From contig JABRWF010000004.1 in the NCBI GenBank assembly GCA_018343915.1, positions 3,038,001-3,102,000 on the forward strand: a stretch of DNA of 64,000 bases, read 5' to 3'. This DNA is from Agroathelia rolfsii (lineage: Eukaryota > Basidiomycota > Agaricomycetes > Amylocorticiales > Amylocorticiaceae). Of the stretch, positions 6,168-45,009 are shown piece after piece. Position 1 is the stretch's first letter. Each line of letters starts with the position of its first letter. The notes beneath the pieces were generated by a model, which saw nothing but the letters and a program-made list of their open reading frames with translations, had not been told where the DNA came from and searched no databases. The position numbers and the translations under genes are program-made.

Positions 6168-9100
6168 AATACGTTCAGAATTGTTTTTCTTCTCTCTCTT
6201 CTTGTAATAATATTTCCATTTCCTCTTCTTCATACTTCTCCCTTGCAGGTGCAAATGGACAGCACCTCAAGGTTCCTATCATGTTCCATGGACCTTTTAG
6301 AAATTTTTCTACTTTTGCTATGATCGATTCCAGTGCCTCTTCTTCTTTTGTAAACTATAGATACGTAGAAAAACATAAAATACCCACAAAAAAATTACCT
6401 CGCCCTATTCCCCTGTACAACATCGATAACTCTGCGAACCAAATTGGAAAAATTGAGTCTGTCGCAATTCTGGATACCACGATAGGGTTAGAAAGGAAAT
6501 ACTTGCCCCTTTGTGTCGTGGACATTGGCCAGGAAGATGTCATTCTTGGTATCGATTGGTTGCATCTCGAAAACCTGGTAATAGACTGGAAATCTGCAGA
6601 AGTTACCTTCCTACCTGAAAAGGAAATCGTTCAAGCTACCACGACCATGCCACTAGGATATGAAGACTTTGCTGACGTGTTCTCCGAAGAGGAAGCAAGT
6701 AGATTACCCAGCCATAAGTCGTCAGACCATAAGATTGAGTTGCTTGACGAAACGAAGCTCAGACGAGGGCGTGTATACCCCCTCAGCAGCAATGAAACTG
6801 ATGCACTCAATGAATGGATTGACGATAACCTGGCTAAGGGATATATTTGTAAATCTGAAAGTGAATTTGTGGCCCCAATGTTTTTCGTACCAAAAAAGAA
6901 TGGTAAACTTCGTCCCGTCCAAGACTATCACGCCCTTAACGAGCAGACTGTTAAAAATGCATACCCCCTTCCTTTGATTTCTGAAATCGTTGAACATATG
7001 ACCAAATTCCACTGGTTCACCAAGATTGACCTACGAGCCGGTTTCAACAATATTAGGATCAGAGAAGGGGATGAACGCAAGGCAGCCTTTATCACGTCAC
7101 GCGGTCTTTTCGAACCTCTGGTGATGCCATTTGGCCTCTGTAATGCCCCCTCCTCTATGCAAGCTTTAATGGATGACATTCTCCTTCGCCTAGTCCAGCT
7201 AGGATTCGTCCGGGTCTATATTGATGATGTTATCATTGGAGCTGAAACAAAGGAAAAGCTACGAGAAGTCACGCGAGAAGTCCTCTCAATCCTACGAAAA
7301 CATAACTTGTATGGTAACCTAGACAAGTTCGAGGTCGAAAAACCTGAAGTCAATATCTTGGGATTCATTGTCGCCCATCGACAAGTTCGCATGGACCCTG
7401 AAAAAGTCAAGCCTATCCTAGACTGGCCCCTACCCAAGAACGTTAAGGAAGTATGAAAATTCCGTGGGCTGGCCAACTACTACAGGCGCTTCATTCGTGA
7501 CTTTGGAAAAATTTGCAAACCCCTAGATTGGCTTACTGGCAAGGTGGATTGGACCTGGGGACAGGAGGAGCAAGAAAGCTTTGAAAACCTTAAGAAGGCC
7601 TTCAGTACAGCCCCTGTCCTGAGATCCTACAATCAGAAAGCATCAACCCAAGTCGAAACAGATGCCTCCTCCTATGCAACCAGTGCAGTTCTCAGTCAGA
7701 AGGACAAATCTAGTGCTTGGCACCCAATAGCATTCTTGTCTCAGTCCATGAATGATGCCGAAAGGAATTATGATATCTGGGACAAGGAAATGTTGGGAGT
7801 CATCTGTGCTTTGGACCACTGGCGTCACCTACTCCAAGGTTTACCCGAACCTTTTGAGATCTGGATGGACCACAAGAACCTTGAATACTGGACGACCGCT
7901 CGCAACCTCACTCGTCGACAAGCTCGTTGGTCTCTCTTCTTAGCAGACTTCAATTTCCGCATTCATTACCAGAAGGGCGCTGAGAATGGCAAGGCCGATG
8001 CACTATCACGACACCCTGATCTCCAGATTTTGGATGCCGAGGATAACCAGGATGTGGTTCTACTTGACCCTAAGTTATTCCGGATAAACGCTGCCCGACG
8101 AGGTCATGTATTAATGGAAGGAGAACCTGAGTTGCTTAAGAAAATCCGGAATGCCTCTCCCGAGGCAGAGGTTGCAGAAGCGCTCCGACTAGTCAAGGAT
8201 CTAGGTCCTGTTAAGCTTCAGAAGGGACTAGAAGAGTGGAATCAGGAAAACGGGGTTATTCTACGACAAGGGAGGGTCTATGTACCTGCAGACAAGGAAA
8301 TCCGTACTCAGATCATTGCCATGTATCACGATAGTTTGCTCAGTGGTCATCCTGGTCAGCATAAAACTCTTGAATTAGTATTGCGCAACTACTGGTGGCC
8401 CGGAATAACCAAGGCAGTAAACGAATACGTAGAAACCTGCCAGACCTGCATTCAAAATAAGTCATCACGCCTTCCTGCTTTCGGACCCCTTGAACCACTC
8501 CCTACCCCAACGCGACCCTGGGATCATATTACTATGGACATGATAGTCAAACTTCCCAATTCCCAAGGATACGATAGCATCCTGGTAGTAGTGGACCAAT
8601 TCTCCAAGATGACGCACATCATCCCAACTACCGAGAAGATCAACACCATTGGTACAGCAGAGTTACTTTGGTCACAAGTGTTTAAACTTCATGGGTTACC
8701 TTCCAGGATAACCTCTGATAGGGGCCCCCAGTTTGCAAGCAAGGTTATGAGGGAGGTACACAAACGCTTGGGTATTACTACCGCTATGTCCACAGCATAC
8801 CACCCACAAACCGATGGTCAATCTGAATGTGTCAACCAGGAATTAGAAGCTTATCTCAGGTTCTTCGTATCACATCGTCAAGATGACTAGGCACGATTAC
8901 TCCCTTCAGCTGAATTTGCATTGAACAATAGGCAACACTTGGCTACCAAGATATCCCCCTTCCAAATGAACTATGGATTTGACCCACGTATGGATTTCTC
9001 CCTGACAGGGATCTTTGACACCCCCGCTGTAGAAGACTGGATGCATGTAATATCTGATGCACAAATGGACGCTCAAGCTGCCCTTAACCTAGCAGCAGAA

Positions 9101-9709
9101 AAAATGAAGGAATTGTTTAATAAGTATGTCCGAGAGTCTCCTCAATGGCAAAAAGGTGACAAGGTCTGGCTTTCCACCGAGAACCTCAAAACTTCTCAAC
9201 CGACTAAGAAGCTTGCCGCCAAGTTTGCTGGGCCATACGAAATCCTGGAAAGGATTAGTCCTCTTGCATACCGCCTCAAGATCCCCCGCACTTGGTCCAT
9301 CCATGATGTCTTCCATGTCTCCCTCTTATCCGGACATAAACCGTCAGACTGGGATCAACCCCCACCAGAACCCATGGAAGTCGAAGGAGAGGAAGAATGG
9401 GAAGTTGACAAGATCAAGGATTCCAGAATCTCAGGAAGACCCAAGCGGCTGGAGTACCTAGTTAGCTAGAAGGATGCACCAGGAGAGGACAATTGGGAAC
9501 CAGCAGACAATTTAGCACATGCCAAGGCCAGGATATGAGATTTCCACAAAAGACACCCCAATGCACCTAAACGCTTGAATGCTGCAGTCTTTGGGGAATT
9601 ACCTTTCAGGCCTATCGAAAACTATACGGAGACAACAATAAAGGAAAGCGCCGGATAGGAACTAGGGAAGTTCCGGAGTAACTCCCTTGAGAAGGGGGTA
9701 ATGTTATGA
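6131..9709 (+). pseudogene. pol: A1 pol (protease-RT-RNase H-integrase-chromodomain) with five in-frame stops
   Basis: Polyprotein in the -1 frame relative to gag. Domains in order: protease (AMIDSSASSSF, where siblings have DSGA, so the active-site glycine is changed), RT ([34 protein letters not shown]), RNase H (VETDASSYA, AFLSQSMNDAE), integrase (zinc finger HPGQHKTLE..CQTCIQNK; catalytic TMDMIVK, TSDRGPQF and AYHPQTDGQSE), a GPY/F-like module (KFAGPYEIL) and a chromodomain remnant (RLEYLVS). Stops: 7454-7456 TGA, 8888-8890 TAG, 9467-9469 TAG, 9536-9538 TGA, 9656-9658 TAG. The reading frame ends at a TGA (9707-9709) supplied by the first bases of the 3' LTR. Not functional as it stands. 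Confidence 0.93.
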
Positions 9710-11328: not shown

Positions 11329-12150
11329 TGTCAAGGATCTACTCCTTGACTATGCTACATTGGGCGTGGTGGGCCTATTTGTGACACAATCAAACAATAA
11401 ACTTTTCTTAACACCAAGACTAAGTACCTAAGAAAGCGGGTTTTCCCACCAATATGCAATCCCTATTATCTATTGAGGGTGCACCGGGTACTCTGCCTAC
11501 TTCTTACGTTGCTCTTATGAATATTACACACACGCACTTACAAGGGGATTTGCACCGCCTCCTAGTGAATGGGGGAAAAGGGAAATGAGGGGAGGAGATG
11601 CTAGAAACCTGGCTCTAGGCCAAAAGTAAACCCTGAAGGCAAAGTTATATTAGTAATCTTCTACTTATTGAAATACAGAACCTATACTTGCCTGAAGGCA
11701 AAGAGGTCGAAGCTAAGCTCTTCAGGACAAGTTACATGCACTATTTATACTACTAAGGAATGGTCTGTGTGCAGCTTTCATGGTCTGTGTGTAGAGGGAG
11801 ATAGAAGTGTAAGAGTGGCAATGCAGGGAAAGAACGTTTAGCCTAACTCCACCAGGCATCCGTGTGGAGATCTGTTTCTGGATCAGTACTAGTAACTATT
11901 AGGAATAGTTCAGGGAAAGGAAGGCTGTGTTCCTGGGCTATGTGTGATGATGAAATGGAAGTATGCGCAGCCCCAAGATTACTCCTGTGATGTGTGGCTT
12001 GGAAACATGTGAGGGCCAATCACATGACCACTGCACTGCCCACAGTCCACGCCCTAAAGGGTAATTTTCTTAAGACAAAAATGGAAAAGAGAAGAAAGTG
12101 CAATAACTAATTAAATAATGGTCCAAATTGTTATGAGTTGGACATTTTTC

Positions 12151-12744
12151 ATGATCGCCTAAGAACTTTGAAGGCTTTTTTCCTCTTTCTTTAGTAGAAG
12201 ACACCGTGACTACTTGAGGGGCCAGGGCAGGGATGGGAGTAGGAGCAGGTCGATCTGCAATTTCAACCAGCTTTCTTTGCGTCTCGGTCATGTGACACAT
12301 CATTTCCGTGGTCTGATGCTGCATCTCCAGCATCTGACCCAAGAACTGTTCGAATCCGGCTGACATGGTTGGTGAAGGGGGACGAGTGATTGCGGGGGTG
12401 CGGGTACGTGGAGTGGGAATAGGCGTTCGGATTTTGGGGGTGACAACAGGGGTAGGGACTCGAGATTGCGTACAAGAGGCAATAGGTTCTGGTGCAGGTT
12501 CAGGCTCTCTATAGTCAGAAGGAGAGGGGTAAGATTCCTCCTCAGGTTCTTCTTCCTCGTCGTCCTCCTCCTCTTCGGATTCTTCGGGTGTAGCGGGTTT
12601 AGGAGGGGAGGGAAGCTTTGGCGGAGTGGGTACCTTAGGAGGTTGAGAAAAGGTGGGCTGAGGAGCGGGTGCGGATATGGAAGGGCGAGCGGAAGTTTTA
12701 GCGGCGGGTTGTGCTGGTGCCTTTCCTTTTCTGGATTGGCTCAT
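12151..12744 (-). pseudogene. gag: A-fold gag, 3'-truncated
   Basis: Starts at the conserved ATG (12744) with MSQSRKGKAPAQPAAKTS. It keeps the proline-rich and acidic N terminus, the region of threonine/proline repeats, the helical MLEMQHQTTEMMCHMTETQ segment and TKERGKKPSKFLGD, then stops being gag at the junction at 12150/12151. About 200 of ~500 residues remain; the central Gag domain and zinc knuckle are missing. The frame stays open to 12070 through foreign sequence, giving an irrelevant tail. No internal stop is present in the retained part. Confidence 0.88.
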
Positions 12745-12874
12745 ATACTTGTGGAGCGAAGGCTCAACACAGGATTCTTGTCTTCTTCAAACTTAGGCAC
12801 CAAGCGGAGTGCCTCTGGTAACGTAATAAAAGAATAAAAGGATTTGTTTTGGGCAGGCAGTTTTGCACCTGAAA

Positions 12875-13723
12875 TGTTATGAGAAGGATAATTTTGCCGA
12901 TTTTTCGAGCTATCTCTTGTATTATTTGGACTAGTATTTAATTTATTATCACGTTTTCTTTCTTTTCTTTTCTTTTCTTTTCCTTTTTCTTATAAAAATT
13001 ACCCTTTAGGGCGTGGACTGTGGGCAGTGCTGTGGTCATGTGATTGGCCCTTACGTGTTCCAAGCCGCACGTCACAGGAGTAATCTTGGGGCTGCGCACA
13101 CTTCTATTTTCACCATCACGCACAGCCCAGGAACACAGCCTTCCTTCCCTGAGCAATTCCTAACGATTACCGGTATTGGTCCGGAAACGGATCTCCACAC
13201 GGATGCCCGGTGGAGTTAGGGTAAAAACTCTTCCCCTGCATTGCCACATTTACGCTTCTATTCCCCTATGCGCACAGACCACTAAAGCTGCGCACGGACC
13301 CTTCAATAGTAGTATAAATAACGCATGTAACTTGTCCTGAAGAGCTCAGCTTTGACCTCTTCGCCTTCAGGCAAGTAAAGGTTTTGTATTCCATAGACAA
13401 TTACTAATAATAACTTCGCCTTCAGGGTATCATCTCTCAGGCCTAGGCCCCCGTCCTAGCCCCTTTTCCTCTTCCCCCCTTTTCTCTTACTTGGAGGTGG
13501 TGCGAATCCCCTCGTGTGTGCACGTGTGATAAGAGCTACGAATACTTAGGAGATAAGAAAGTACCCGGCGCAGCCTCAATAGACATAGGCATTGCGTATC
13601 TGTGGGAAAACTCCTTAGTAGGTACTTCAGAGACTTAACAAGTTGAGAGTATATTGTTTGGTTTAGTGCACAAGTAGGCCCACCACGCCCAAAGTCACAA
13701 GATCAAGGAGTGTACCCTTGACA
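12875..13723 (+). repeat. B1 5' LTR
   Basis: Starts TGTTATGAG and ends CCCTTGACA. TATAAATA at 13313; primer segment AGCTTTGACCT at 13348-13358, exactly 35 bp on; the 3' LTR has AGCTTCGACCT, so this copy took a CpG transition after insertion. An imperfect inverted repeat (13330-13342 and 13365-13376) flanks the primer. Confidence 0.95.
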
Positions 13724-14198
13724 TTAGGTCGAAGCTACCAGGTTTCCCTCGGACTTCCACGGTCTGAGAAGGCAAGAGTAACGATCTTGCACGAAGAGCA
13801 ACACCTTCAATCTTTGTTTTACGTACACACTTCTGAGTGCATAAGGAATAAACTACTTCGGAAAGCAATTGTGTGTGGCCCTCCAAAGCCCATTTACAAC
13901 TCTGTCTAGACAAGAATAACGTGTACGTTCCACGTGATTTCTTGGCTGTATCCGAAGCGCAATACAAACCTAAACCGTTTGGCGTTCTAGGAGTCCTCCT
14001 TGAGGATCAAAGTTTATTATTCCTAAGTGCAAGTGGCACCTTTCCCACCCTCCCCTGCCATTATATTTTTGTGTGTTTTTGCGTGATTACTGTACGGGCA
14101 AGCTCTAGCCCCTGACGAAGAAGAAAAATCCCGTTAACCGAATTAGGAAACCGGTACGACCACCGGTGACGAAGAAGATCGCATCACCCGCTCTGTGA
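13724..14198 (+). other. B1 leader with primer-binding site
   Basis: Primer site AGGTCGAAGCT at 13726-13736, two bases after the LTR. The remaining ~460 bp are non-coding leader; I see no supported ORF in it. Confidence 0.8.
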
Positions 14199-15665
14199 AT
14201 GAGCACATGCAAAGGCACTTCCTACAAGCCCAAAGAAGTCCCGGTCCCCTGGGCTACCAAATCCACCGCATCCCCCCCCGAAGTCACCAGAGAAGTCGCG
14301 TCGAGCTCTGCTCCGCAAGCATCAGAAGAAGAAGAGTCTGGTGAAGAAGCCGTATCAACACAAGCCTCTCCACCCAAAACACCAGAAGGGGAAGAAGAAG
14401 CTCCCTCTGAATATCCCTCCCCCTCTGAGTTCCGTCGACGTTACACAACAGAAGCATCCTATCCAGAATCCCCCATTGTCCCACATCCATCCCCTTCTAA
14501 AAGCCGCCAAGAACGCCGCAGAGAAAAACGAAAAGAAACCTTCGAAGAAGAAGAACCCGTGACAATGTCGTTACTGCAGGAGCTTAGCCAAATCTTGATA
14601 CTCCTTCAGTCCAACCAGGCCCGCATCCAGGCCTCTATGGAACAAATGCAAGAAACTCAGGCGCGCTTCGCCAACCTTCTCGAACGAGAACAACCAGCTC
14701 CCACCACTATTGCAACCTCTTCCACCCCCAAAGAAATCGGGCAATCCCCCGAAAAATGGTCTGGAGACTAGACCAAATACCAGTCTTTTGTGTTCGGCTT
14801 TGAGAACCACCTCAAGTTGAACCCAGGAATTTATTCCACGGACCAAAAGAAAGCACGCTACTTTGTAGGACTTTTAGAAGGGGCACCCAAAGCTTGGAGC
14901 CAAAAATTTGATGATGCAATAGATACCAAAAGCTTCAACTTCAAAAGAGACTTGTACGCCAAGTTCAAAGCGTTGTACGGGGCCAGGGATTTCGGAAGGA
15001 TCGCCCTTCAAAAATTGCAAGACCTAAGACAAGGTACATCATCAATCGCGGACTTTACGGCAATGTTCTCTACCTTGGCGAACCAAACTAAGCTATCAGG
15101 AGAAGACTTAAGGGTCCGCTATTGGCAGGCCCTCTCTCCTAAAATTAAGGGTGTGATTGGCGGTTATCCCAAGGAGCGACGAGATAGCCTGGAACATCTG
15201 ATGGAAGCTGCAGTAGATGCGGAAGAAGGACTTAGGGATGCGGGAATATGGACCGATGGATGGAAGCCAAAGCCCCGTTTCCAGAATCAAGGAACGGCAG
15301 CAAATCCTATTACTATCAACGCCGTACAAGCACCATCCCCTGGTCCAACCCTGGTAACAACACAAGGAAACTGTCGGCCGCCCAGAGATCTAAGCACAGT
15401 GCAGTGCTACAACTGCCAACAATGGGGGCACTTCGCCTCCAACTGCACAAATCCGCGGGTCTCAAGATATCAGGGTTCCAGACCCAGAGTCCAAGCAACC
15501 GTGGTAACAACACCTACCCCTCCATCAGCAGATCAACTTGGAACCTCGGCGTCCAGCGACGATATCAACGAGGGGTCTTCTACAATGACGATGGCCGATC
15601 TACAGGCCCTGGTAGAGCAGCAAGCTATGGCGCTCGCCGCGTTCAAAGACAAGGCGGGTTTTTAG
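14199..15665 (+). pseudogene. gag: B1 gag, one in-frame TAG
   Basis: Family-B Gag of 488 codons starting MSTCKGTSYKPKEVPVPW. N terminus acidic and proline/serine-rich; residues ~120-170 form a coiled-coil-like stretch (LLQSNQARIQASMEQ, QETQARFANLLERE); then the Gag core (KYQSFVFGFENHLKLNP, YFVGLLEGAPKAW, YGARDFGRIALQKL) and a CCHC knuckle, C-YN-C-QQWG-H-FASN-C, near residues 402-415. A single TAG (14769-14771) replaces the tryptophan codon seen in B2. The frame ends TAG 15663-15665 right behind the slippery heptamer. Otherwise intact. Confidence 0.94.
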
Positions 15666-15699
15666 AAGGGTCGACGGAAAGGGCCATTTCGGCCGACCC
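15656..15699 (+). promoter_or_regulatory. B1 -1 ribosomal frameshift signal
   Basis: Heptamer G-GGT-TTT (15656-15662) immediately before the gag TAG, 5-base spacer, then a perfect stem GGGTCG (15668-15673) with CGACCC (15694-15699). Pol is open in the -1 frame. Confidence 0.8.
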
Positions 15700-18600
15700 A
15701 TATCTTTCAAATCGTTTCTCCTCTCTCCTCTCGTGTAATTCAGTTTCCATCTCTGGTGCGCATGGACAGCACCTTCATATCCCTCTCATGTTCCATGGAC
15801 ATTTTTCTTCTCTTGTAACCTTAGCAATGATAGATTCTGGCGCCTCTTCCTCCTTTATTCACTCTCATTTTGTTAAAGAAAATAAAATCACTACAAAGAA
15901 ACTACCACATAGCATTCCTGTACACAATATTGACAACTCATTAAATGCACAAGGAAAGATTGAAGAGATCGCAATTTTAGAAACAAGCATTGGGGGAATA
16001 CAAAAAAGGCTCCCATTCCTAGTCACCGACATCGGCCTCGAAAATGTGATCCTGGGCATTGACTGGCTCCAGTTGGAAAACCCGGTAATAGACTGGTCAG
16101 TAGGCAAGGTCACACATACCGACCGCCTAGCCATCTCTTCTAGTCTCTTACCAGAATGGGCTTCTAAGTACGTATCGGTCTTCTCAAAAGAAGCCTCCCA
16201 AAGACTACCGCTTAGAAAACCCTGGGATCACAAGATTGAGCTCAAGGATGGTGCACAACTTCGGAGAAGCAAGGCGTACCCGCTATCCGTCAAGGAAGAA
16301 GAAGCATTGGTAGATTACCTCAAAGAAAATCTCGAAAAGGGTTACATCAGAAAGTCAGAAAGCCCTATTGCCGCCCCTATGTTTTTCGTCCCAAAAAAGA
16401 ACGGTTCATTATGCCCAGTACAAGATTATCGAAAGCTCAACGCAGAAACAATTGAGAACGCCTATCCCCTCCCCCTTATCTCCGAATTACAGGACAAAAT
16501 GACCAAGTTCCGAACATTCTGTAAAATCGACCTTCGATGGGGGTTCAACAATATTCGGATCCGAGAAGGAGACGAACATAAAGCGGCTTTCATAACAAAC
16601 AAGGGCCTTTTTGAGCCAACAGTCATGACGTTTGGCCTTTGTAATGCACCAGCAACAATGCAGACAATGATGGACGATCTGTTTTACAAGTTCAACCAAT
16701 TAGGTTGGCTAGTCCACTACATTGACGACATCATCATTGGCGCACAAACGGAAGCCGAACTTCGTGAACAAGTCCTGGAAGTACTAAGGGTCCTCAAAGA
16801 AAATGACTTATTCGCAAACCTGGAGAAATTTGAGTACGACGTTCCCGAAGTAGACATCCTGGGTGCCCTTGTCTCATTTGGCTCAATCCGCATGACACCG
16901 GAAAAGGTTAAGGCAGTCCTAGAATGGCCCCCACCCCAGAAGGTTTCTGACGTCCAACGATTCCGTGGCCTCGCCAATTACTACCAACGCTTCATCCGGA
17001 ATTTCGCCCAGATTTGTAAACCCCTAGACCGCTTGACAGGCAAAGTCGAATGGAAATGGGGACAAGAAGAACAGGAGGCCTTTGACAAACTAAAAGAAGC
17101 GTTCACTTCGGCTCCAGTGCTAGGAGCATACAACCAAACTGCCGAAACACGTCTAGAAACCAATGCCTCCAACTTCGCTACTGGAGCGGTGCTTCTCCAG
17201 AAGCAGGGAGACAACTCATGGAGACCAATCGCATTTCTCTCTCAAGCCATGAATGATGCCGAGTGGAATTATGACATTTGGGACAAAGAGATGTTGGGTA
17301 TTATTAGGGCCCTAGATGCTTGGCGCCATTACCTTATTGGTCTTCCACACCCCTTCGAGATCCGGACAGACCATAAGAACCTTGAATATTGGAAAACCGC
17401 AAGAAATCTTACACGACGACAAGCGAGGTGGTCCCTTTTTCTCTCCGAATTTCGATTCACAATCTCCTATCTCCGAGGCTCCGAAAATGGCCGCGCTGAC
17501 CCCCTTTCCCGACGACCGGACTTCCAACGATCAGACGAAGAAGACAACCTGGACCAAGTAGTTCTAGACCCCAAGTTGTTTCGAATCAATGCCGCAAGGA
17601 GAGGTCATGTGGAAGTTCAGGGGGAAAAAGGAATCTTGGACAGAATCAGAAGCAAAGCAAGGGACGCTGAAATTGCAAATGCTTTGGGACTGGTTAAAGA
17701 ACTCGGGCCGGTCAAACTGCAAAAGGGTTTAGAAGAATGGAACGAAGAAAATGGTTTAATTTTACATCTTGGAAAGGTCTACGTCCCTCGCGACACCACT
17801 CTACGTAATGACATTATCCGGTTACACCACGACGTCCCGACAGCTGGTCATCCGGGCCGCCACAAGACCCTAGAACTAGTTTCCAGGAACTATTGGTGGC
17901 CTGGACTCACAAAGGCGGTTAACGATTACATTTCCTCCTGCCCCAGTTGCCTTGCTTCTAAAATGGCTAGAACTATGCCAGTAGGACCCTTATCCCCCCT
18001 ACCAACCCCTGAGCGACCTTGGGAACACGTAACATCGGACATGATTGTCAAGCTCCCCGAGTCCCAGGGCTTTGATTCCATCCTGGTAGTAGTAGACAGG
18101 TTGACTAAAATGTGCCACCTAATTCCATGTGTGGAAGCGATCACCGCATCTGAAATGGCAGACCTCTACTTAGCACACGTCTTCCGACTACATGGCCTTC
18201 CCCGGCAATGGACTTCTGACCGAGGACCCCAGTTTGCCGGAAAAGTCATGCGCAAAATTCACAAACGGTTAGACATCAAGACATCCTTGTCCACCGCCTA
18301 CCACCCGCAGTCTGATGGACAGACCGAACGACTTAATCAAGAAGTCGAGGTTTATTTGAGGAACTATGTGTCACACCGGCAAGATAATTGGGCCGGTCTT
18401 CTACCGCTCGCTGAGTTTGCATTGAACAATCGATAGCAAGTCTCCACTGGGTCATCACCTTTCGAAATGAACTATGGTTTCTCTCCTAGAATGAACCTTA
18501 CGACGGCAGGAATTCCAAACACGGAAGGCGCACAAATATGGACAGAGAAGGTCAAAGAACTTCAAGAAGACGCTAAAGCTGCACTGGACCATGCGGCCAG

Positions 18601-19198
18601 CCGAATGAAATATTTCTTCGATAAATATGCGGCAGAAATCCCGAAGTATGCCGTCGGCAACAAAGTTTGGTTAAGCACCGAAAATATCAAACTAGCCCAA
18701 CCATCAAAGAAACTCTCGGCTAAATGGATTGGCCCGTACAAAATCACGGAACTTATAGGGAACAGAGCAGTTCGGCTCGCCATCCCCAAAAGATGGACCA
18801 TCCACGACGTCTTCCACGTATCACTAATCAAACCACATGTGCAAGTAGAATCCAGACCACTCGCCCCAGTTCCGGAAGTCATTGAGGTAGAAGGAGAAGA
18901 AGAACATGAAGTTCTGCGAATAAAGGACAGCCGCCTAAGCCCAAGAACCAAGAAGTTGGAATATCTAGTCGAATGGAAAGGATATCCCGGTGAAGACTCG
19001 TGGGAAAAAGAATCAAATATTACCAATGCCCCGCGACTCATCAAGGAGTTCCACAAAAAGAATCCCAAAGCACCTAAACGCCTCTCGGCTGCAGTCTTTG
19101 CGAATCTCCCATTCCGACCAATTGAAAATTTCACGGAGACCACAGAAAGGATAGGAGGAACTTGGGAACTTGGGATGTTCCGGAGGAAATCCCCTTAG
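15662..19198 (+). pseudogene. pol: B1 pol, nearly intact (one TAG, RNase H active-site change)
   Basis: About 1178 codons. Protease motif [13 protein letters not shown] with FVPKKNGSLCPVQDY, MTFGLCNAP and the catalytic YIDDIIIGA (first Asp codon 16724-16726); RNase H where the first catalytic motif reads LETNASNF instead of LETDASNF, a D-to-N change; integrase zinc finger (HPGRHKTLE..CPSCLASK), catalytic TSDMIVK, TSDRGPQF and HPQSDGQTE; GPY/F-like module (KWIGPYKIT); chromodomain (KKLEYLVEWKGYPGEDSWEKE). One TAG at 18434-18436 between the integrase core and C-terminal part. Ends TAG 19196-19198, 11 bp before the 3' LTR. Confidence 0.94.
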
Positions 19199-19209
19199 GA
19201 AGGGGGTAA

Positions 19210-20058
19210 TGTTATGAGAAGGATAATTTTGCCGATTTTTCGAGCTATCTCTTGTATTATTTGGACTAGTATTTAATTTATTATCACGTTTTCTTTCTTT
19301 TCTTTTCTTTTCTTTTCCTTTTTCTTATAAAAATTACCCTTTAGGGCGTGGACTGTGGGCAGTGCTGTGGTCATGTGATTGGCCCTCACGTGTTCCAAGC
19401 CGCACGTCACAGGAGTAATCTCGAGGCTGCGCACACTTCTATTTTCACCATCACGCACAGCCCAGGAACACAGCCTTCCTTCCCTGAGCAATTCCTAACG
19501 ATTACCGGTATCGGTCCGGAAACGGATCTCCACACGGATGCCCGGTGGAGTTAGGGTAAAAACTCTTCCCCTGCATTGCCACATTTACGCTTCTATTCCC
19601 CTATGCGCACAGACCACTAAAGCTGCGCACGGACCCTTCAATAGTAGTATAAATAACGCATGTAACTTGTCCTGAAGAGCTCAGCTTCGACCTCTTTGCC
19701 TTCAGGCAAGTAAAGGTTTTGTATTCCATAGACGATTACTAATAATAACTTCGCCTTCAGGGTATCATCTCTCAGGCCTAGGCCCCCGTCCTAGCCCCTT
19801 TTCCTCTTCCCCCCTTTTCTCTTACTTGGAGGTGGTGCGAATCCCCTTGTGTGTGCACGTGTGATAAGAGCTACAAATACTTAGGAGATAAGAAAGTACC
19901 CGGCGCAGCCTCAATAGACATAGGCATTGCGTATCTGTGGGAAAACTCCTTAGTAGGTACTTCAGAGACTTAACAAGTTGAGAGTATATTGTTTGGTTTA
20001 GTGCACAAGTAGGCCCACCACGCCCAAAGTCACAAGATCAAGGAGTGTACCCTTGACA
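19210..20058 (+). repeat. B1 3' LTR
   Basis: 849 bp, matching the 5' LTR almost throughout; primer segment AGCTTCGACCT near 19683, perfectly complementary to the B1 primer site. Preceded by the polypurine tract. Confidence 0.95.
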
Positions 20059-20063
20059 TGAAA

Positions 20064-20341
20064 GGTGTCCCTAGAAGCAGCAGGCTAACCCTGCGGTAGC
20101 GCCTTCGGATAACGACACAAGGTTTCCCTGGAACGTGCAGGTACTCCCAAGCCTAAATCTGAATGGGTTAAAACTAGGTATTAGATCCTAGCTAATTGCT
20201 TCCGCAAACAGTTCAAGCCCAAATACAAATTTGACAAAAGAAACGTATGTAAAAGTTTTTCCTTGCTTGTGCTATTTGGCAGTGAATCAAACTGCACACT
20301 GGAGCGAGGCTCAACAGTGGTTTAGGCTAGCTTCGACCTAA
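20064..20341 (-). other. A-fold leader (resumed) and primer-binding site
   Basis: Continuation of the family-A leader after B1, collinear with 61073-61400 of A3 on the opposite strand. The primer site appears as AGCTTCGACCT at 20329-20339 on the plus strand. Confidence 0.8.
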
Positions 20342-21351
20342 TGTCAAGGCTTATGCGCTTGACTCTACCAAAAGACACAACCTGCTGTAAGGTACGCAGG
20401 TGGGCTGTAAAGCCGGGTTTTACGTGTACGACTTGTTTGGTATTCTATTTCAGACACCCACGTGCTCCCGTTGCTACCTTTCGTAATAGTATATGCTAAG
20501 CTCTACTTTGCTAAGATCGTGGTCAGTACTCTAGCCAGAGGCTTCCCATGTACTCTCTTCGCGTCAAATGAAGCTTATTGTATTTCTTACTGAGGATAGG
20601 TGGCTTAGCCCTCTGTGGTCTACGTAATGTCTGCTAGGACTTATTACTGCCTAGGCCTAAACAAATAGGGCTTTAATCACACGGGCGCCCTCTAATGTAT
20701 TAGGGACTTAAAGACTTATGAGCCTTCTTGTATCAAGGCCTCGGTACACTTACTAAGATGCCCTAAAGGCCTTACACTTAATAAGAAAAAGGGAAAGAGA
20801 GAGGGGGTTGTGGGCTAGGACTTGAGTAAGCCTGAAGGCGAAATATATTAGTCATATATAAGGGATACAAGTGGGGAGGGTGCCCTTACCTAAAGGCGAA
20901 AAGGTCAAAGCTAAGGTTCAGGTAAGGGCTACATGCTTGTATTTATACATAAATGAAAGGGCCCGTGCACAGCCTTGATGGTCTGTGCGCAGCCGGGGTT
21001 CGTAAGCAAGATTGTGTCAAATGCAGGGGCAGTGCTTTATGACTAAGTCTGATGAGCAACCGATCGGAGTGATGAGTCTAGTACTCCTTAGTAATCGCAC
21101 AGTAATCGGAACGACCCTGGTTCCTGAGTCTAGACCTTTTGATGAAAAGGAATGATCTAGACTCCACCTTCCTAATATACTCTTGTCACGAGCACTCCTG
21201 TCACGTGGGGCTAACACAGCTAGTTACACGCGCGTCAAGATGTCGCCTGCAAGGTATTTCGTCCGTATCTCAGTAAATAAAAATCGTAAAAATATAATAA
21301 AAATATGTACATGTTCGTAAGGAAAAGGCGAAAAATGTCCAACTCATAACA
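20342..21351 (-). repeat. A-fold LTR (complete)
   Basis: 1010 bp family-A LTR in minus orientation, plus-strand ends TGTCAAGG..CATAACA. Its outer end abuts the TSD CAAAT. TATA region near 20940, primer segment near 20915. Confidence 0.93.
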
Positions 21352-21405
21352 CAAATATTTCAAGAAAATAACCGAAAAATCGGCGAAAATTCCCTTCTCA
21401 TGATA

Positions 21406-44435: not shown

Positions 44436-44590
44436 TGTCAAGAGTGTCATGGGTTACTCATGACTCAAACCAACCAAACACATCTAGCCTAGGAAGGCTA
44501 GGTAAAGGGGGGGGGGTACTACTGATATCTTTAATCTCCCCCAGTAGGGAGGTGCAACTCATGTTTAAAGACCTAGAGACAAGGTCTCCC
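44436..44590 (-). repeat. LTR-F fragment (unclassified)
   Basis: Begins TGTCAAGAGTGTCATGGG directly after family-A LTR sequence and is cut at 44590 by B4. The TG start and the placement suggest the end of a minus-strand LTR of another family. A poly-G run lies near 44508. No second copy in the window. Confidence 0.4.
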
Positions 44591-45009
44591 TGTCATGAGA
44601 AGGAATTTTTGGTGACAAAGCCTGCCAATAGCAGACTTGAAGATCTTCACCCAATAGTTTGGTCTAGTTGGCAAGGGTAGAGAATGTTGCTGTAAAGTCC
44701 ACAACTGAGGACGTGCCCTGTTTGAGGTCTTGTAATTTTTGGAGGGCAATCCTCCCAAAATCTCTCGCACCATATAGTGCCTTGAACTTGGCGTATAGGT
44801 CCCTTTTGAAGCTGAAACTCTTGGTGTCTATGATGTTGTCGAACTTCTGACTCCAAGCTTTTGGTGCCCCTTCTAGAAGACCCACAAAATACCATGCCTT
44901 TGTGTAATCTGTGGAGTAGATTTTGGGATTCAGCTTAATATAGTTTTCAAAGCCGAATACAAAAGATTGGTACTTGGACCAGTCACCAGAGAATTTCTCG
45001 GGTGCTTGG

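Follow-up and report, generated by a model that had tools for sequence, protein, structure and literature searches.

Recurrent fold-back insertions with two U3 termini in the genome of Agroathelia rolfsii and their probable origin in a slip of reverse transcription

The stretch of 64,000 nucleotides of Agroathelia rolfsii DNA analysed in this work (hereafter the window) harbors, at positions 12129-21351, an insertion of long terminal repeat (LTR) retrotransposon DNA that carries the same LTR terminus, the start of U3, at both of its ends. We call this kind of insertion a fold-back. Nine fold-backs, with LTRs of three types, were found in the genome (37.7 Mb, 8 contigs), and they are a real and recurrent integration product that is best explained by a specific slip of reverse transcription. 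The integration of cDNA with two U3 ends is well supported, and it is quite probable that the fold-backs are integrated reverse-transcription products, with one LTR and two U3 termini, generated by a template switch of nascent plus-strand DNA at the polypurine tract (PPT).

The fold-back insertion at 12129-21351

The unit is a single insertion of a Ty3/gypsy element that we refer to as family A, which ends on one side in a 22-bp inverted LTR start and comprises a full LTR, the leader and a truncated gag on the other. The short arm (TGTTATGAGTTGGACATTTTTC, 12129-12150) reproduces the reverse complement of 21330-21351 without a mismatch over its 22 bases, and the target-site duplication (TSD) CAAAT lies on both sides of the unit, at 12124-12128 and 21352-21356. 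Without a nested element of a second Ty3/gypsy family (family B), whose LTRs are 98.9% identical and which entered the leader of the fold-back (12875-20058), the unit measures about 2.03 kb, comprising a 1010-bp LTR and, in addition to the leader and the 22-nt arm, some 594 nt of gag. This is the composition, with its perfect TSD, that the initial annotation had described from the letters of the window, and our analysis recovered each of its parts; the gag label of the segment 12151-12744 was given by position, and a Pfam scan of that piece yielded no match.

The target of the insertion was itself a family-B LTR, the two halves of which rejoin across the fold-back. Indeed, the joined flanks, with one CAAAT removed, align without interruption to family-B LTRs, and 23 of the 55 matches in the retrieved DNA (overlapping loci being counted repeatedly) cross the joint. 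Because this alignment is continuous, both ends of 12129-21351 come from one integration, and the idea that 12129-12150 might belong to a separate insertion, raised initially as one of two possible refutations, fails since the flanks rejoin.

Recurrence of fold-backs in the genome

In the genome census, LTR starts were listed together with the 5 bases that precede them, the signal of a fold-back being a plus-strand start with a downstream minus-strand start (an outward pair) bearing the same 5-bp flank. The search patterns were 14 and 13 bases of the LTR start, with which arms shorter than about 13-14 nt are invisible. For family A and similar sequences, 302 of 311 places were listed, 240 of the 302 not being preceded by the PPT end GGTAA; for family B all 189 places were listed and 141 were not so preceded. 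Exact 5-bp matches were found in 4/43 family-A outward pairs within 10 kb vs 1/52 inward ones, and in 3/15 family-B outward pairs within 10 kb (3/8 within 5 kb) vs 0/17 inward ones, with a fourth family-B outward pair at 25.8 kb. Opposite-strand pairs located on different contigs, which provide the background, matched in 19/9407 (A) and 2/3759 (B) cases, and no same-strand pair within 10 kb shared its 5-mer (0/105 in A, 0/31 in B). A chance agreement of the TSDs was rejected on the basis of both the different-contig rate and the rejoining of the targets.

All eight outward pairs with an exact TSD proved to be fold-backs when their DNA was read. Together with a ninth locus, starting at 44591 of the window, the set includes the fold-back at 12129 and the loci L064, L066 (which carries the LTR of the third type), L069, L070, L071, L072 and L057. 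In these nine the U3 start is outermost on both sides, the two TSD copies are identical in eight and show a single mismatch in the remaining one (44591), and the target rejoins in 8/9. The number of matches spanning the reconstructed empty site was 23 for the fold-back at 12129, 27 for L064, 26 for L069, 11 for L070, 5 for L071 and 6 for L072; it was 1 for L057 and 4 for the 44591 fold-back, both of which had a right flank of only 8 nt, and zero for L066, and rejoining was graded solid in six of the nine. As for the 44591 fold-back, whose far end lies outside the window, its TSD copies read CTCCC and CTCCT, and one of them is probably mutated, since the 4 matches that cross its empty site derive from 3 distinct places.

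The LTR starts were also read independently of any TSD. In family B, 139 of the 141 starts were read (120 fetched for the purpose and 19 others, some of which had been chosen because of pairs), and each of the 120 follows a normal LTR start for 75 nt or more. Five of the starts read are short arms (L057, L070, L071, L072 and 44591), each of them with an outward partner and four with an identical TSD. The family-A starts that were read amount to 78 of 240 (61 previously retrieved and 17 random) and comprise the short arms of 12129, L064 and L066 and the long arm of L069; the 17 random starts included no certain fold-back, L200 (see below) being a possible one. Per insertion with a preserved start, the frequency is thus 5/~136 in family B and at least 4/~236 in family A.

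A genome search for LTR starts fused to inverted gag, with TSDs, had been proposed initially, and the census together with the reading of starts returned eight additional fold-backs. The occurrence of nine separate loci speaks against an assembly error at 12150, and the proposal that integrase had accepted a cDNA with identical LTR termini on its two sides is supported by the TSD, by the reconstituted target and by the eight further cases.

Some other candidates were examined and set aside. The inward pair C1:4506844/4508653 (TCAGG) was taken as a coincidence, both flanks being read as family-A LTR DNA at a recurrent TTCAGG motif, and the short matches at L054, L055, L068, L073 and L212 were not counted, as they look like diverged or interrupted LTR starts. 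At L200 (C8:72971, minus strand) the LTR match breaks after about 34-41 nt and then resembles an inverted LTR end, which may represent a nested LTR or another fold-back; no plus start listed on C8 carries a matching TSD, and L200 is kept outside the nine. As a separate observation, the listed LTR starts of the two families that are not preceded by GGTAA are unevenly distributed among the contigs, with 173 on C1, 82 on C7, 69 on C8 and 41 on C4, and few on C2 (12), C6 (3), C3 (1) and C5 (0).

Table 1. Parts of the two fold-backs located in the window, with their targets and the nested element.
Feature	Position	Strand	Remarks
Target family-B LTR, portion beyond the insertion site	11329..12128	-	joined flanks align to family-B LTRs
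Left TSD CAAAT	12124..12128	+	matches 21352-21356
Short arm, inverted copy of the initial 22 nt of the family-A LTR (start of U3)	12129..12150	+	22/22 vs minus-strand 21351-21330
Gag, 5' portion of ~594 nt that stops at the fold-back joint	12151..12744	-	likely ORF start ATG at 12744; homologous stretch in other family-A copies
Leader, first part up to the nested element	12745..12874	-	ends in TSD TGAAA 12870-12874
Nested full-length family-B chromovirus, later insertion, outside the fold-back cDNA	12875..20058	+	TSD TGAAA 12870-12874 and 20059-20063
Leader, second part, with primer-binding site AGGTCGAAGCT (20329-20339, antisense)	20064..20341	-
Only complete LTR of the fold-back, U3 start at 21351	20342..21351	-
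Right TSD CAAAT	21352..21356	+	matches left TSD
Target, first ~50 bp of the same family-B LTR	21352..21403	-	joined-flank alignment
Left TSD CTCCC of the second fold-back	44586..44590	+
Short arm, 22 nt, U3 start of a family-B LTR	44591..44612	+	partner start beyond the window, C4:3126162-3126179 (minus), TSD CTCCT
Gag after the joint, broken off by a family-A element that lies inside the fold-back, from 45010 on	44613..45009	-

Joint anatomy and the possible origin of fold-backs

The joints were read by hand, their distance being counted from the LTR end and the shared bases being scored against the closest relative in the retrieved DNA. Three of them lie in gag: that of the 12129 fold-back (22-nt arm, about 1.0 kb past the LTR end), that of the 44591 fold-back (14-22 nt, about 1.4 kb, 5 shared bases, or 2 to 8 with other relatives) and that of L071 (about 17-24 nt, about 1.58 kb, 1 shared base, up to 7 if the parent differed). 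At the 12129 joint the closest relatives read ATTTCTC and the LTR ATTTTTC, and another relative (ATCTTTC) shares 4 bases; the near-identity of ATTTTTC with gag at this point, on which the suggestion of a template switch had been based, holds at 6/7 positions if a mismatch is allowed, but the exact agreement of 2 bases is modest. L064 (24-33 nt, 9 shared bases) and L066 (10-15 nt, 1 base shared in register, or 5 if the parent had one extra A) join at 78 and 109 nt, respectively. L072 has an arm of 15-21 nt, a joint at 401 nt and a shared ATTTTT, and L057 uses the same leader site, also with a shared ATTTTT, in an event that was independent because its TSD and flanks are different.

The remaining two joints fall on the predicted first base of minus-strand DNA. 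In L069 the arm is 450 nt long and ends exactly at the Tf1-like self-primer motif AGCTTCGACCT, with 11-13 shared bases, and in L070 a 21-nt arm reaches the same base (2 nt past the LTR end) with no shared base. The two arms of L069, whose differences include 12 transitions but no transversion, have an identity of 96.5%, vs 79-88% between the LTRs of the different family-A elements compared; since they are this similar, both arms probably come from one source, as judged from their sequences. Two further observations concern these loci: the joint site of L072 and L057 (C1:988857) is purine-rich in the leader (GAAGAAAAAT-like, sense strand) and might be a switching hot spot, and positions 158-1653 of L070 hold a family-B LTR that is lengthened near its middle by an additional sequence of about 625 bp (51% G+C), for which the retrieved DNA contains one 124-bp match (78%), in L040.

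Overall, the short arm spans about 10-33 nt in 8/9 fold-backs, and the joints are placed between 2 nt and about 1.6 kb beyond the end of the LTR, microhomology (often ATTTTT) being present in most of them. All nine lie at or beyond the predicted minus-strand start and R-U5 holds none of them (0/9). Under comparisons that were framed after the data had been seen, arms of at most 35 nt in 8/9 cases have P ~8e-13 vs a uniform spread over 13-1000, the location of 9/9 joints within 1.6 kb past the LTR has P ~3e-6 vs a uniform distribution over LTR plus interior, and the mean microhomology is 4.6 nt (2, 9, 1, 11, 0, 1, 6, 6 and 5 for 12129, L064, L066, L069, L070, L071, L072, L057 and 44591, respectively) vs 0.36 in simulations, the largest simulated mean being 2.0 (0/20000). 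A template switch is thus favored by a microhomology above random over the nine cases, but not in each of them.

During minus-strand synthesis R-U5 is copied first, and the sense RNA of the primer-binding site (PBS), leader and gag is the last to be copied, so that it is present longest. The joint places fit this scheme because it is in the sense RNA that persists longest that they are found. We suggest that, within the particle, plus-strand DNA would begin at the PPT next to U3 and that its 3' end would quit the template after about 10-33 nt (once 450 nt). The freed end would then pair with the sense template at the PBS, leader or gag, mostly by microhomology (ATTTTT of U3 with AAAAAT), and would be extended as minus-sense DNA through leader, PBS and full LTR, either on a co-packaged RNA or by joining an existing minus strand. 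Plus-strand synthesis from the other PPT-defined end, running to the 5' end of the primer, would yield a linear duplex with a U3 start at both ends, the formation of which would require no second strand transfer and which integrase would handle as a normal substrate, making a 5-bp TSD. In the case of L069 a longer plus strand would use the self-primer's own complementarity to the PBS; the template might be a second RNA, the same RNA or plus-strand DNA. The slip at the PPT that had been envisaged from the window is the best fit to the arms of about 10-33 nt in 8/9 cases and to the joint places in 9/9, the template, the direction of the switch and the enzyme being those that we infer. In the available text of two studies on the reverse transcriptase (RT) of HIV (PMC3185654, PMC3185700), this enzyme pauses near +12, changes orientation and removes the PPT primer; the arms of the fold-backs are near this pause step but mostly longer, and the enzyme is different.

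Other routes to the same structure have to be considered. It is possible, though unlikely, that two different cDNAs were each attached by integrase, through their U3 ends, to one target site, the middle part being lost by microhomology-mediated end joining. This would also produce the same TSD, the U3 ends and the microhomology, and the U3 end of a short duplex could in principle take part in such a joining, but a random loss leaves unexplained both the arms of about 10-33 nt in 8/9 cases and the confinement of the joints to the first 1.6 kb past the LTR. In addition, the arms of L069 are more alike than the LTRs of different elements, although two cDNAs of one parent would be equally alike, and joints between U5 ends should be as common as those between U3 ends; none was seen in 16 pairs, a control too small to decide. 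An even less probable alternative, which is a close variant, is an end-to-end template jump, in which a plus strand leaving LTR, leader or gag would meet a free, short plus-strand DNA of U3 at its 3' end and copy it out completely. Since this jump also involves the short PPT-primed strand, it fits the arm lengths, and the L070 joint, which lies exactly at the predicted minus-strand start, coincides with a natural template end; seven of the nine joints, by contrast, are inside leader or gag, away from such an end. Finally, we regard a post-integration rearrangement, separate nested insertions, autointegration, chance or an assembly error as very improbable, in spite of the abundance of nested elements in the region and of the fact that 5-mers match in 31/14111 opposite-strand family-A pairs (true ones included), with one inward pair within 60 kb (L073). 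Indeed, matching TSDs with rejoining targets occur in 8/9 fold-backs, and nine independent loci speak against an assembly error. As to autointegration, it joins terminal LTR bases and not a point 10-33 nt inside the LTR, where the joints of the fold-backs are found.

The switch of a nascent plus strand at the PPT, which we prefer, has in turn some points against it. No intermediate has been seen; L070 is devoid of microhomology, and the 12129 fold-back, L066 and L071 have only 2, 1 and 1 exact bases, respectively; the L069 arm is long; and the lower end of the arm-length range is not fixed by patterns blind to arms below about 13-14 nt. Moreover, the same sequence would result if plus-strand DNA had served as template, or if the growing plus strand had switched to a free oligonucleotide of U3. 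The U5-U5 control, which covered family A only (flanks not starting with T, 183 of 220 places listed), gave 0/16 outward pairs within 10 kb vs 4/43 U3-U3 pairs, a difference that in so small a control is not significant (Fisher P 0.57); the same lists gave 77 normal start-to-end pairs with one TSD, 38 of them of about 1.0 kb and 11 of about 7.48 kb.

We lean towards a more general idea, according to which the plus strand set free during the pause of initiation at the PPT is a regular primer of minus-strand synthesis on genomic RNA. This would make both the customary primer of the minus strand and the second strand transfer dispensable, give a single-LTR cDNA with an integrase site supplied by the primer, make a few per cent of insertions and represent a route from LTR elements to short terminal-inverted-repeat elements. 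If this is true, the genome preserves a fossil record of a transient step, when the plus strand has reached only its first few tens of bases, and integrase in a living host requires two valid ends and not two different ends. Outward LTR starts with one TSD would also provide a simple diagnostic for any LTR-rich genome, and we expect that fold-back copies are probably missed or split by tools that seek direct LTR pairs.

Families A and B and the closest known systems

Family B encodes RT, RNase H and integrase (15248-18436), SH3_Tf2-1 and Chromo (18467-19198) and a gag with a zinc knuckle, so that the domains of a Tf1/sushi chromovirus (pol domains, SH3_Tf2-1 and chromodomain) are all found in it. 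They are found in part in family A, in which RT, RNase H, integrase and SH3_Tf2-1 were detected and Chromo was not reported in the scanned piece (8921-9469). The named relatives among the 120 listed of 2239 matches include two mushroom proteins, a Tf2-like one from Lyophyllum shimeji and another from Agaricus bisporus, as well as a bacterial metagenome bin. A likely PPT, GAGAAGGGGGTAA, immediately precedes the 3' LTRs that start at 9702 and 51497.

The LTR ends with CCTTGACA, followed by TT and by the PBS AGGTCRAAGCT, to which the motif AGCTTYGACCT of the R region is complementary. Both motif and PBS are present in 27 LTR-leader pairs (overlapping loci not removed), which come from the window and from retrieved loci such as L064, L066, L069 and L072. 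The complementarity is exact in 18 of these pairs, with two forms that co-vary (11 and 7 pairs), and inexact in the other 9, of which 5 deviate by a single G-U; for 24 additional LTR-leader cases the stretch searched yielded no motif. This arrangement resembles the self-priming of Tf1-like elements, as described in the available text of PMC4600332 and PMC10085805, and the agreement concerns the complementarity between the presumed 5' end of the mRNA and the PBS only.

No account of insertions with two U3 ends was found in the literature searched, which omits most subscription journals, so that a prior description elsewhere is possible. A DNA transposon with short terminal inverted repeats is not what we observe, as the interiors of the fold-backs consist of LTR, leader and gag cut at different points, the exception being L072 and L057 with their common joint site; no transposase search was made. 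The closest systems are the self-primed Tf1/sushi chromoviruses (Tf1, Tf2 and Tj1), which family B resembles in the pol domains, SH3_Tf2-1, the chromodomain and the R/PBS complementarity. Unlike these elements, the fold-backs are defective, having one LTR, no pol and U3 at both ends, and insertions of this kind are not mentioned in the parts available of the accounts of Tf1-like elements cited above (PMC4600332, PMC10085805).

Different types of abnormal reverse transcription offer further terms of comparison. Inverted L1 insertions, which arise by twin priming, are target-primed and involve neither an LTR nor a retroviral-type integrase; they are similar to the fold-backs in that the inverted joint is formed during reverse transcription. 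Another relevant process is strand displacement-assimilation, which is reportedly associated with the name Junghans. In the text available for it, short plus-strand DNAs leave their template and anneal to a minus strand made from the other RNA (PMC3187697); the release of plus-strand DNAs is shared with the fold-backs, in which they would prime on a sense template and change direction. The LTR complexes that Sabot and Schulman (2007) attributed to template switching (PMC1950507) are also alike, abnormal switching during reverse transcription having been inferred, as in this work, from complex insertions with matching TSDs. Those complexes contain three LTRs in direct orientation, which were explained by a jump between R regions, whereas a fold-back harbors one LTR together with an inverted LTR start, whose length is about 10-33 nt (450 nt in one case), and has U3 at both ends.

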